From: Agrococcus jejuensis
GTDB taxonomy: Bacteria > Actinomycetota > Actinomycetes > Actinomycetales > Microbacteriaceae
Assembly: GCF_007679035.1 (NCBI RefSeq)
Contig: NZ_VEFR01000003.1
Coordinates: 310,001 to 374,000 of the forward strand
DNA: 64,000 nt
Direction of reading: 5' to 3'
How positions within the stretch are numbered: the first letter of the stretch is position 1; the number at the start of each line of letters is the position of its first letter. Shown in pieces: positions 6,195 to 21,949 of this stretch. The translations under genes and the position numbers were made by a program. The notes below the pieces were generated by a model. It made no database searches. It was not told where the DNA came from and saw nothing but the letters and a program-made list of their open reading frames with translations.

Positions 6195-6283
6195 GCCGAC
6201 CAGCGTCCCGCACGGGACCGCGCTGCGCGAGCCGGCGCCGCGTCCGAGCAGCGTCGCCGATCGGGTCCGACAGACGACGAAGA

Positions 6284-6367
6284 CTCCCCGCGCACCCGCC
6301 AGAGCCCGGTTACCCTTGCTGCGTCTCCGCCCTGGGGGAGTTGGCCTGGATGGCGCCACGCGGGGAG
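6284..6367 (-). ncRNA. ffs: Signal recognition particle RNA (small bacterial type)
   Basis: Reading the minus strand, a 9-bp terminal helix CTCCCCGCG/CGCGGGGAG (6367-6359 with 6292-6284) encloses the conserved helix 8 core. The core contains CAGGGC, then GGAGAC, then GCAGCAAGGG. This matches the SRP symmetric and asymmetric loops (CAGG..AGCA), and the downstream TAACCGGG is typical of actinobacterial SRP RNAs. The apical loop reads G[GAGA]C instead of the usual C[GGAA]G; it is still a GNRA loop with a swapped closing pair. The RNA binds Ffh to target membrane proteins. The exact 5' and 3' ends are estimates from the helix. Confidence 0.88.
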
Positions 6368-6403
6368 CCGTCGTCCATGGTACCGGCTCTCGGCCGGCCT
6401 CGG

Positions 6404-16831: not shown

Positions 16832-17431
16832 GTGGCCAAGCTCTACTTCCGCTACGGGGCGATGAACTCGGGCAAGTCGACGGCGCTGCTGCAGGCGGCC
16901 TTCAACTACGAGGAGCGCGGCCAGCGGGTGCTGCTGGCGAAGCCCGCGACCGACACCAAGGGCGACGGCGCGATCGTCTCGCGGCTCGGCGTGACCCGGG
17001 ATGCGGACTTCTGCGTCGCGCCGGGGGAGTCGATGCTCGGGGCCTTCGTGCACGCGACGGGCGGCGACCCGGGCGGACACCTCGTCGCATGCCTCCTCGT
17101 CGACGAGGCGCAGTTCCTGGGCCCCGAGCAGGTCGACGACCTGCTGCGCATCGCCGTGCTGCACGAGGTGCCCGTGCTCGCCTACGGCATCCGCACCGAC
17201 TTCCGCACCCACGCGTTCCCCGGGTCCGCGCGCCTCATGGAGATCGCGCACTCGCTCGAGGAGCTGAAGACGATCTGCCGGTGCGGGCGCAAGGCGCTGT
17301 TCAACGGCCGCCGCGTGGGCGAGCGCTTCGTGTTCGAGGGCGACCAGGTGGCGATCGACGGCGCCGCCGTGGCCTACGAGTCGCTGTGCGCGACGTGCTA
17401 CCTGCGCGAGTCCGGCGGCGTGCTCGCCTGA
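16832..17431 (+). CDS. tdk: Thymidine kinase
   Basis: Phosphorylates thymidine for dTMP salvage. The type II enzyme has 199 residues with P-loop YGAMNSGKSTALLQAAFNYEE (about residues 9-29 within that stretch), Walker B LLVDEAQFLGPEQV, the catalytic Glu in that motif, and the zinc-binding cysteines CRCGRK and CATC. The lasso loop and the FVFEGDQVAIDG strand are also present. GTG at 16832 has no Shine-Dalgarno site but has a TAGCCT hexamer 8 bases upstream. A bidirectional hairpin follows the stop. Confidence 0.95.
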   Translation: MAKLYFRYGAMNSGKSTALLQAAFNYEERGQRVLLAKPATDTKGDGAIVSRLGVTRDADFCVAPGESMLGAFVHATGGDPGGHLVACLLVDEAQFLGPEQVDDLLRIAVLHEVPVLAYGIRTDFRTHAFPGSARLMEIAHSLEELKTICRCGRKALFNGRRVGERFVFEGDQVAIDGAAVAYESLCATCYLRESGGVLA

Positions 17432-17448
17432 GCGCAGTCCGACACAGC

Positions 17449-17478
17449 GAAAGCCCCCTCGCTCGGAGGGGGGCTTTC
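17449..17478. terminator. Bidirectional hairpin terminator between tdk and tRNA-Pro
   Basis: A 12-bp stem, GAAAGCCCCCTC paired with a matching arm ending GGGCTTTC, and a GCTCG loop. The arms carry AAAG and CTTTC, so weak U-runs appear on both strands. It can end tdk transcripts (+) and tRNA-Pro transcripts (-). Confidence 0.75.
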
Positions 17479-17484
17479 CCAGTG

Positions 17485-17514
17485 TGGTCGGGGTGACAGG
17501 ATTTGAACCCGCGG
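17485..17514 (-). pseudogene. Partial duplicate of the tRNA-Pro 3' end
   Basis: Thirty bases match the 3' part of the intact tRNA-Pro (17572-17601) with a single change (C for T at 17510/17597). They include the T-arm, acceptor 3' strand, discriminator and encoded CCA. The 5' half of a tRNA is absent: upstream on the minus strand lies an unrelated 11-bp hairpin (17510-17534), and no strand pairs with the acceptor. It is a remnant, not a functional tRNA. Confidence 0.8.
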
Positions 17515-17574
17515 AGGTCCTGGGGACCTCCGCGTTCGCTGAGCCTCGTGACCGTTCCTCGATGAGGACCTTGG

Positions 17575-17648
17575 TCGGGGTGACAGGATTTGAACCTGCG
17601 GCCTCGTCGTCCCGAACGACGCGCGCTACCAAGCTGCGCCACACCCCG
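17575..17648 (-). tRNA. tRNA-Pro (anticodon CGG)
   Basis: A full cloverleaf on the minus strand: acceptor CGGGGTG/CACCCCG, a D-arm with AGCTTGGTAGCG, and anticodon stem CGTCG/CGACG around the loop TTCGGGA, giving anticodon CGG. The T-arm is GCAGGTTCAAATCCTGT. The discriminator is A and CCA is encoded (17574-17572). It reads the CCG codon, which is among the commonest Pro codons at this GC content. Confidence 0.96.
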
Positions 17649-17679: not shown

Positions 17680-18576
17680 CTAGCCGATCCGGCGGGCCTC
17701 CAGCGACACCAGCACGGCCTCGGGCGGCGTGCCGAGCCGGAACGGCGCGTAGATCGACGTGCCGATGCCCTGCGACACCTGCAGCGCGGCCGAGTCGGCG
17801 CCGTGGCGCCACGTCGACAGGCCCGACGCCTGGTCGAGCGGCACGTCGCAGTTGGCGACGAGCGCGTGACCGCCGGGGATGCGCACCTGACCGCCGTGCG
17901 TGTGGCCGGCGAAGACGACGTCGGCGCCCTCGTCGACGAGCATGTCGAGGATGCGCCGGTAGGGGGCGTGGGTGACGCCGATCGCGACGGGGCCGCGCGT
18001 GCCCGGGCTCCAGTCCGCCTCCGCGCGCAGCGTCGCGAGCTCGTCGCGCATGACGTCGGTGCGATCCCAGCCGTGGTGGGCGTCGTGCGTGCCGAAGAGC
18101 TCGAGGCGCGTGCCCGCGATCTCGAGCGCCCGCGCTCGGTCGTCGAGGTCGAGCCAGCCGAGATCGGCATAGGCGGCCTCGAGCGCAGCGGTGTCGAGGT
18201 CGGGCTCACGGTGCACGGCCCCCTTCGACGACGGGCCTCGGAAGTACCGCAGCGGGTTCTTCAGCACGGGACCGTACAGGTCGTTGGAGCCATGCACGAA
18301 GACGCCGGGGATGCCCCGCAGCGGCTCGAGCGAGTCGGCGAGCGCAGGGATCGCGTCGCGGTGCCCCAGGGCGTCGCCCGTGGAGACGACGAGGTCGGGT
18401 TCGAGCGCGGCGAGCGATCGCAGCCACTCGACCTTGCCTCGCTGCCACGGCGCGAGGTGCTGGTCGGCGAGATGCAGCACGCGCAGCGGCGCGCTGCCGG
18501 GCGGCAGCGCGTGCACGGTCTCGTGCCGCACGCGGAAGGCCGTGCGCTCGACGAGCGTCGCGTAGGCGGCCGTCAC
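17680..18576 (-). CDS. Calcineurin-like metallophosphoesterase (membrane-linked type)
   Basis: A 298-residue phosphoesterase with the ordered metal motifs LHLADQHLAP (D-x-H), STGDALG, HGSND (GNHD variant), GVTHAPY and FAGHTHGGQVR. The family often sits downstream of a penicillin-binding protein in actinobacteria and carries one N-terminal TM segment. The only standard start is GTG at 18576, which keeps just a short hydrophobic stub. The same frame upstream encodes a convincing TM segment (APGRALGIAAGALVGVGVV) reaching a CTG at 18642, 11 bases into the PBP gene, with no ATG, GTG or TTG available. A CTG start or sequence error is possible. The substrate is unknown. Confidence 0.85.
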   Translation of the reverse strand: MTAAYATLVERTAFRVRHETVHALPPGSAPLRVLHLADQHLAPWQRGKVEWLRSLAALEPDLVVSTGDALGHRDAIPALADSLEPLRGIPGVFVHGSNDLYGPVLKNPLRYFRGPSSKGAVHREPDLDTAALEAAYADLGWLDLDDRARALEIAGTRLELFGTHDAHHGWDRTDVMRDELATLRAEADWSPGTRGPVAIGVTHAPYRRILDMLVDEGADVVFAGHTHGGQVRIPGGHALVANCDVPLDQASGLSTWRHGADSAALQVSQGIGTSIYAPFRLGTPPEAVLVSLEARRIG

Positions 18577-21881: not shown

Positions 21882-21894
21882 CCGCAAGACCGTT

Positions 21895-21940
21895 GGAGGT
21901 CTTCGGCCGCTTGCGACATCGCAAGCGGCCGAAGACCTCC
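21895..21940. terminator. Long perfect dyad between convergent genes (bidirectional terminator)
   Basis: A 22-bp perfect inverted repeat with only 2 central bases (21895-21916 with 21919-21940). It sits between the ends of the RidA gene (+) and acs (-). In RNA the centre opens to a small loop. No long T-run follows, but AGACCTCC ends suit strong hairpin termination in both directions. Confidence 0.75.
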
Positions 21941-21949
21941 ATGCTCTGG

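Follow-up and report, generated by a model that had tools for sequence, protein, structure and literature searches.

The duplicated end of a tRNA-Pro(CGG) gene

The stretch of DNA analysed here (the window; 64,000 nucleotides) is part of a genome of Agrococcus jejuensis, which we designate G000 and which was studied as one of 24 compared genomes of the genus. It carries an intact tRNA-Pro(CGG) gene between a metallophosphoesterase gene and the convergent thymidine kinase gene tdk, and the 3′ end of this tRNA gene is present twice. The features of the locus, together with the SRP RNA gene of the same window, are as follows:

6276..6372, minus strand: SRP RNA gene without a unit, an empty site in comparison with G008, G015, G018 and G023 (Rfam, comparison)
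16832..17431, plus strand: thymidine kinase gene tdk, convergent neighbour (NF003300 above its cut-off; PF00265)
17442..17485, strand not given: terminator-like inverted repeat beyond X′, 17-nt arms, 88% complementary
17485..17509, minus strand: X′, 25 nt identical to the 3′ end of tRNA-Pro, with CCA (repeat search)
17510..17534, minus strand: hairpin H, arms CGCGGAGGTCC/GGACCTCCGCG, loop CCA (3 nt), abutting X′
17535..17571, minus strand: spacer S, 37 bp, separating the tRNA end from the hairpin
17572-17596, minus strand: source sequence X, the last 25 nt of tRNA-Pro(CGG) (sequence comparison)
17572..17648, minus strand: intact tRNA-Pro(CGG) gene (ARAGORN 17572-17648, Rfam 17575-17648; anticodon CGG)
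17680..18576, minus strand: metallophosphoesterase gene upstream of the tRNA gene (PF00149), whose protein was used for the tree described below

Read in the direction of the tRNA gene, the order is tRNA end X, S (17571-17535), H (17534-17510), X′, the terminator-like repeat and tdk.

A direct-repeat search aligned positions 17485-17514 with 17572-17601 (29 of 30 identical) at a spacing of 87 bp, which bears out the original prediction of a tRNA-Pro 3′ end duplicated in the same orientation with its CCA. The exact repeat comprises 25 nt (17485-17509 = 17572-17596; GGTTCAAATCCTGTCACCCCGACCA on the minus strand) and not the 30 bases that had been proposed, because the remaining bases belong to the 3′ arm of H. 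Likewise, the 11-bp hairpin is real and perfect, with a 3-nt loop, but its end falls at the first base of X′; it is flush with the copy and therefore does not merely lie among 57 unrelated bases, as had been supposed. Sixty-two bp separate the two 25-nt copies, without an integrase or an element between them; measured against the empty sites, the locus comprises a duplicated block of 25 bp plus 62 bp of new sequence. S and the hairpin together showed no similarity either to the 5′ part of the tRNA gene (p 0.68) or to the flank beyond X′ (p 0.83).

Both strands of ~464 kb of G000 (10 kb counted twice) were scanned for local direct repeats of at least 18 bp that lie 40-200 bp apart, each pair being counted per strand. 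Among the 32 pairs recovered, the one at tRNA-Pro(CGG) was the sole pair with a hairpin (arm of at least 7, loop of 3-5) ending no more than 2 nt from the second copy; flush hairpins of this kind were present at 7 of 640 random G000 positions. The second tRNA-Pro end is not a chance repeat.

A search among close relatives for strains with a single copy had been recommended along with the original prediction, and such strains are the rule. Among the other genomes of the genus, 23 in all, 22 have a single exact CGG-type tRNA end and none has two; the end was absent from G011 (78% complete). With up to one mismatch, a further CGG-type copy occurs in G000 only among the 24 genomes, and at this threshold none of the 23 relatives has a second end that would bound the predicted element; a sequence with three mismatches in G012 adjoins the TGG tRNA of that genome. 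The single tRNA-Pro(CGG) end of G007 and G013 is directly followed by a terminator and the end of tdk, an empty site with the same neighbours, and a terminator resembling theirs is still present beyond the distal copy in G000. A tree of the metallophosphoesterase, a single protein obtained from 21 of 23 loci (none matched in G005 and G022), groups G000, G007 and G013 at 100/100, separate from the others. Because the relatives are single-copy and the nearest two have the terminator directly after the tRNA gene, the 87 bp are best regarded, judged by these sequence comparisons, as a derived acquisition of the G000 line; that both relatives lost them is less likely. Several relatives carry other DNA beyond the terminator at tRNA-Pro(CGG). 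In the wider family, a strict tRNA-Pro pair was present in 3 of 398 genomes (G000, G003 and G253).

Rfam matches at gathering score in the window were limited to an FMN riboswitch (RF00050; 61176-61298, minus strand), two tRNAs and the SRP RNA, with no match to an rtT-type RNA. Long perfect palindromes of related sequence (GAGGTYTTCGGCC...; arms of 22-24 bp, 4-nt loop) occur at least three times in G000, at 21894-21941 of the window and at 17974 and 19040 of locus L202 (contig C33), and they possibly represent a repeated terminator or a MITE-like element. The same contig contains at ~255.6 kb (L200, ~15582) an 83-bp plain tandem repeat with a hairpin (ATTGGTCCA.../...TGGACCAAT) beside a run of AAGTGGCCAAT-type repeats, which was left uncounted.

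Gene-end units across the genus

The architecture of gene end (X), spacer (S), hairpin (H) and copied end (X′) is found again elsewhere in the genus, at tRNA-Pro, tRNA-Ser and tRNA-Gly genes, at the SRP RNA gene, at ftsY and at an iron-sulphur assembly gene, with up to six tandem copies. Downstream of tRNA-Pro(TGG), G003 has five units of ~80 bp, G018 and G004 have one each with perfect hairpins, and G012 has one copied end without a perfect hairpin. tRNA-Ser(GGA) is followed by three 82-bp units in G004, by one unit in G020 and by one in G005, where an unrelated AT-rich hairpin lies 2 nt from the copy; structure, and not one particular sequence, may therefore matter. Six 102-bp units follow tRNA-Gly(TCC) in G003, and tRNA-Gly(CCC) has units in G003, G009 and G018. 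The SRP RNA gene bears 75-bp units in G008, G015, G018 and G023 (SRP identity by Rfam in G018), and the site is empty in G004, as it is in the window. At ftsY (family checked in G018; TIGR00064), units of ~67-69 bp are present in seven genomes (G006, G009, G010, G015, G018, G020 and G023), which were found via the hairpin pattern with up to three mismatches, a procedure that misses units with other hairpins. The iron-sulphur assembly gene belongs to the ErpA family (TIGR00049 above cut-off, the ErpA model just below its own) and carries 80-bp units in G009 and G010; contigs break within the array. In G009, a site at a contig start (C12) was counted as part of one array with C3. Less regular cases are the end of an rRNA/tRNA uracil-methyltransferase-like gene in G023, which is repeated and has its hairpin at a distance of 14 nt from the copy; two ~78-bp units without a perfect hairpin after tRNA-Pro(CGG) of G253, a genome from outside the genus; and a variant hairpin without a copied end at a tRNA-Gly gene of G008.

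As judged by eye, the duplicated block is ~33 bp long at the SRP RNA gene of G023, 56 bp at tRNA-Gly of G009 and ~34 bp at the ErpA-family gene. The spacers mostly differ between loci by the same kind of inspection, a finding that we count against our main reading, as we do the irregular hairpins and copied ends just described.

When all 24 genomes were scanned for the hairpin arms of G000 (up to three mismatches), exact arms were seen at ftsY and tRNA-Gly of other species, while G000 had one site and G007 and G013 had none; the reversed pattern, used as a control, yielded one site per strand, in G003 only. Two hairpin families were distinguished. The first (arms CGCGRAGGYCC/GGRCCTYCGCG) is accompanied by X′ at all 11 loci examined, the diverged G009 ftsY case being assigned by eye. 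The second (arms CGCGACGC/GCGTCGCG) has 11 exact sites, which we grouped into eight loci, seven of them with X′; at the exact hairpin in G013, a weak 14-mer (2 mismatches, 42 bp) was counted as no copy. Intact hairpins of both families thus accompany a copied gene end at 18 of the 19 loci examined, counts that leave out the G018 sites 584983 and 2001068 (3 mismatches). Another 11 sites that match the second family with one mismatch have no clear copied end, the one in G017 showing a weak 14-mer with 2 mismatches at a distance of 204 bp. By eye, TGGTCRCCTCGG-like bases to the left of the second-family hairpin are common to the SRP and ErpA-family units.

When 19 hairpins (14 distinct), chosen by pattern or by eye and hence by a selection that favours conserved arms, were aligned, both sides had changed in 4 of the 11 pairs, and 95.5% of the cells were paired as against at most 45.5% when the arms were slid; the count of further pair types was not above that of shuffles (109/500). 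Each of 14 flush hairpins, some of which come from one array and one of which is the repeat L037, has a 3-nt loop, although loops of 3-5 nt were allowed. Among background hairpins with arms of at least 8, a loop of 3 makes up 56/191, 50/168 and 54/137 of loops 3-5 (0.29-0.39) and 0.18-0.23 of loops 3-8. The loop is 5 nt in one weak pair from G004. L037 itself, an intergenic tandem repeat of G004, was left out of the family since it is not at a nameable gene end.

Like the G000 scan, the controls in G018 and G004 used DNA that had not been chosen for units, each pair being counted per strand. A flush hairpin was found at 1 of 76 repeat pairs in G018, this being the SRP unit, whose locus had been included on other grounds (8/1520 at random positions), and at 2 of 132 pairs in G004, both weak and 137-138 bp apart (14/2640 at random positions). 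A looser version of the test gave 50/3040 at random positions, and single matches with one or two mismatches in unselected DNA were left uncounted. None of the 60 repeat pairs in 62 tRNA-region loci (166,325 bases) has a flush hairpin; 57 of these loci, some of them overlapping, come from other genera and five are single-copy loci of the genus. The family may therefore be limited to the genus, with the reservation that these comparison loci were chosen around tRNA ends. A class-wide pattern search matched 30 of 296 genomes, all of which by eye contain genuine tandem tRNA pairs except G000 and a pseudo-tRNA array in G524, and the papers listed by our literature searches do not describe units of this kind from the group. 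Taken together, we consider it very probable that the G000 copy is the distal border X′ of an S-H-X′ unit and belongs to a genus-wide family.

Other arrangements at tRNA genes were noted as well. Locus L229 (G524) consists of five 73-bp pseudo-tRNA-Thr units and a diverged sixth, and L238 (G023) of three 69-bp pseudo-tRNA-Lys units, the 3′ part being preserved in both. A degenerate inverted T-arm fragment is present ~60-80 nt past the tRNA-Pro(CGG) end at L013 (G010) and L017 (G015), and similar pieces lie inside tRNA-Gly units. At L039 (G015), L045 (G021), L046 (G002) and L158 (G014), candidate islands measuring 8-16 kb lie at tRNA-Pro(GGG) or tRNA-Pro(TGG) and have a copy of the tRNA 3′ end on their far side, and a displaced 5′ part of tRNA-Pro(GGG) lies upstream of the intact gene in G015 and G012.

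Possible origins of the units

The original prediction took the second tRNA end for an attL/attR-like scar of a tyrosine-integrase element that had been lost almost wholly. What stands is a derived 87-bp gain at a tRNA 3′ end; the collapsed element does not fit the start of the identity, the hairpin border and the recurrence of the units. As in an att pair, a tRNA 3′ end with its CCA is directly repeated beside an intact tRNA gene, relatives possess the empty site, and candidate islands are present at other tRNA-Pro genes of the genus (G002, G012, G014, G015 and G021), where another tRNA end lies at a distance of 8-38 kb. The identity in G000 begins at GGTTC and extends over 25 nt, whereas that of the candidate islands at tRNA-Pro(GGG/TGG) reaches past the T-arm, upstream of GCAGGTTC. 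Phage-borne copies argue in the same direction. An exact 23-mer of the tRNA-Pro 3′ end occurs in 38 stretches of viral contigs, which by ARAGORN contain 25 whole tRNA genes and 13 partial ones. In nine of the partial copies (L063, L065, L070, L072, L076, L077, L089, L091 and L093), whose upstream side is uncut, identity continues upstream of GCAGGTTC towards the anticodon loop, with GCA and stem bases kept upstream of GGTTC; GCA or GTA is still kept in three that are cut at contig ends (L061, L073 and L083) and in L057, a diverged tRNA-like sequence. Searched with the 87 bp as a query, no phage or plasmid record spans 80% of it: the best 20 of 353 phage records and the best 20 of 25 plasmid records fall within the tRNA end, except for one plasmid (query bases 3-39, 89%), the sole match beyond the tRNA end among the matches listed. 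Independent decay of islands, moreover, would not be expected to leave 67-126-bp units with flush perfect hairpins, often in tandem, at many genes. With the copy stopping at GGTTC against a hairpin, in contrast to phage-borne ends, candidate islands and relatives, we reject the att reading and regard a scar as improbable; the second tRNA end is probably not what a lost virus or island left behind but a hairpin-bearing unit that repeats the last few dozen bases of the gene. Exact first-family arms were present in none of the viral contigs, and one tRNA-Gly unit that was searched in plasmids had no match.

A tandemly duplicated tRNA gene with its 5′ two thirds decayed would account for unit lengths close to that of a tRNA, and pseudo-tRNA arrays do exist elsewhere (the 73-bp tRNA-Thr units of G524, z 5.9; by eye, the 69-bp tRNA-Lys units of G023). 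Since the spacer is unlike the tRNA 5′ part in G000 and in eight other Pro/Ser units (p 0.29-0.94) and like units follow ftsY and SRP RNA, such a remnant is a very remote prospect, rejected for the G000 unit at the sensitivity of that alignment. Hardly likelier is a selected RNA feature, with H-X′ in the trailer serving termination or processing, or functioning as a small RNA. The pair-preserving changes in H, an apparently better conservation of H and X′ than of the spacer at ftsY across seven species (by eye) and a G000 locus fold more stable than shuffles (z -3.5, to which tRNA and terminator contribute; the 87-nt unit alone has z -1.9) would suit it. Yet presence is patchy at every locus, the hairpins differ, and the predicted fold pairs the 5′ acceptor strand of the tRNA with the distal copy and would misfold the tRNA. 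A more serious rival, if still an unlikely one, is local tandem duplication aided by the hairpin (slippage or template switching), with H as a local terminator and nothing that moves. Homology between the spacer and the sequence beyond the last copy was detected at 2 of 10 loci tested (tRNA-Pro(TGG) of G003, z 6.0; tRNA-Ser of G020, z 5.0) and, by eye, at tRNA-Gly(CCC) of G009 and G018 and at the SRP RNA gene of G023; inverted T-arm pieces within tRNA-Gly units (by eye) look as if they came from template switching; and the unrelated hairpin in G005 and the uniform 3-nt loops of all 14 flush hairpins against the background fraction of 0.29-0.39 also point this way. In G000, the dissimilarity of spacer and flank leaves plain tandem duplication unsupported, and the relatives' type of terminator still follows the distal copy; at other loci it remains a rival, although identical arms at unrelated genes and in distant species would be unexpected from purely local events.

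On balance, we favour an explanation that joins the genus-wide family of units to the insertion of a hairpin-ended segment with a re-copied gene end. Most likely, a short piece of DNA with a 3-nt-loop hairpin at its end would enter at the 3′ end of a gene, and ~15-56 bp of the gene end would be copied again on the far side of the segment, so that the gene stays intact; the direct repeats might then permit tandem amplification or precise loss. The comparisons show the layout of the units, their presence at genes that are not related to each other, relatives with one copy, hairpins of shared sequence and pair-preserving changes; what we infer beyond this is a mobile hairpin segment and a duplication that arises through DNA synthesis or repair at the hairpin. 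Long duplications of variable length with a hairpin at the junction suggest either an inserted hairpin-ended segment with re-copying or template switching at the hairpin; hairpin sequences common to several loci favour a moving segment, whereas the G005 hairpin, the flank-repeating spacers and the inverted T-arm pieces favour hairpin-driven copying. For insertion with target re-copying as the mechanism, our belief and our doubt nearly balance, doubt being slightly the stronger. More tentatively still, the units might represent a new type of tiny non-autonomous element of ~40-70 bp with a 3-nt-loop hairpin end. Such an element would target essential genes at their 3′ ends (tRNA, SRP RNA, ftsY, iron-sulphur assembly), preserve each gene through a fresh copy of its last 15-56 bp and multiply as tandem repeats; its spread could possibly proceed via hairpin-primed DNA synthesis or via the copying of an RNA that ends at a terminator hairpin.

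Comparison with known repeat systems

Partial tRNA ends are widely read as traces of genomic islands, and island-finding tools use them in this way; short recurrent hairpin units that copy gene ends would pass for att scars. Should the hairpin segment prove mobile, it would rank with the smallest mobile units known to us and would represent a new route of insertion at essential genes that leaves them unbroken. Should the duplication be driven by the hairpin, the origin of rtT-like repeats would become testable in a defined genus.

tRNA-targeted islands and their att fragments resemble the units in that a tRNA 3′ end is directly repeated and the gene itself remains whole. The units differ in the lack of an integrase between the copies, a much shorter identity, a hairpin border, tandem arrays and the other types of genes at which they lie. 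In those portions of a published account that treat partial tRNA genes, att fragments of tRNA-targeted islands are expected to be pervasive, and the cases described there are attributed to integration and CRISPR uptake, with tmRNA as a further tRNA-like source; units of the present kind are not named there (PMC9897764).

A resemblance to REP/REPIN sequences lies in short dispersed intergenic palindromes that are common to loci and species, a dispersal that holds across genomes; within G000, one copy is found (up to three mismatches). Unlike REP/REPIN sequences, the hairpins of the genus are few per genome in the searches made, and intact arms nearly always stand beside a re-copied gene end. 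REP/REPIN palindromes are moved by RAYT (Y1) transposases; a Y1 transposase (PF01797) was detected in none of the 24 genomes of the genus, with control matches in 5 of 14 named genomes, and a REP/RAYT system was rejected on this ground; the absence also speaks against our main reading.

The nearest parallel, drawn by analogy, would be the tyrT/tyrV repeats of Escherichia coli (small RNA rttR, tpr). To our knowledge, these repeats have not spread to SRP RNA or protein genes, and the E. coli rtT has been proposed to act in termination, in processing or as a small RNA. At tyrV of strain MG1655, repeats with a spacing of 178 bp end in the last 19 nt of the tRNA, and rttR is annotated within the repeats after tyrV. 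The spacing exceeds the 67-126 bp of the units in the genus, and the E. coli repeats also differ in that they belong to a tRNA-Tyr of a gammaproteobacterium, have a hairpin that is not flush with the copy and are of different sequence. Like the units of the genus, the tyrT/tyrV repeats stand in tandem downstream of a tRNA gene, and each closes with a copied tRNA end, as does the unit downstream of tRNA-Pro(CGG). In MG1655, all three copies after tyrV are preceded, at a distance of 4 nt, by a short 3-nt-loop hairpin (by eye), and the tRNA-Ser copy of G005 begins at the same T-loop position (AATCC) as the copies at tyrV.
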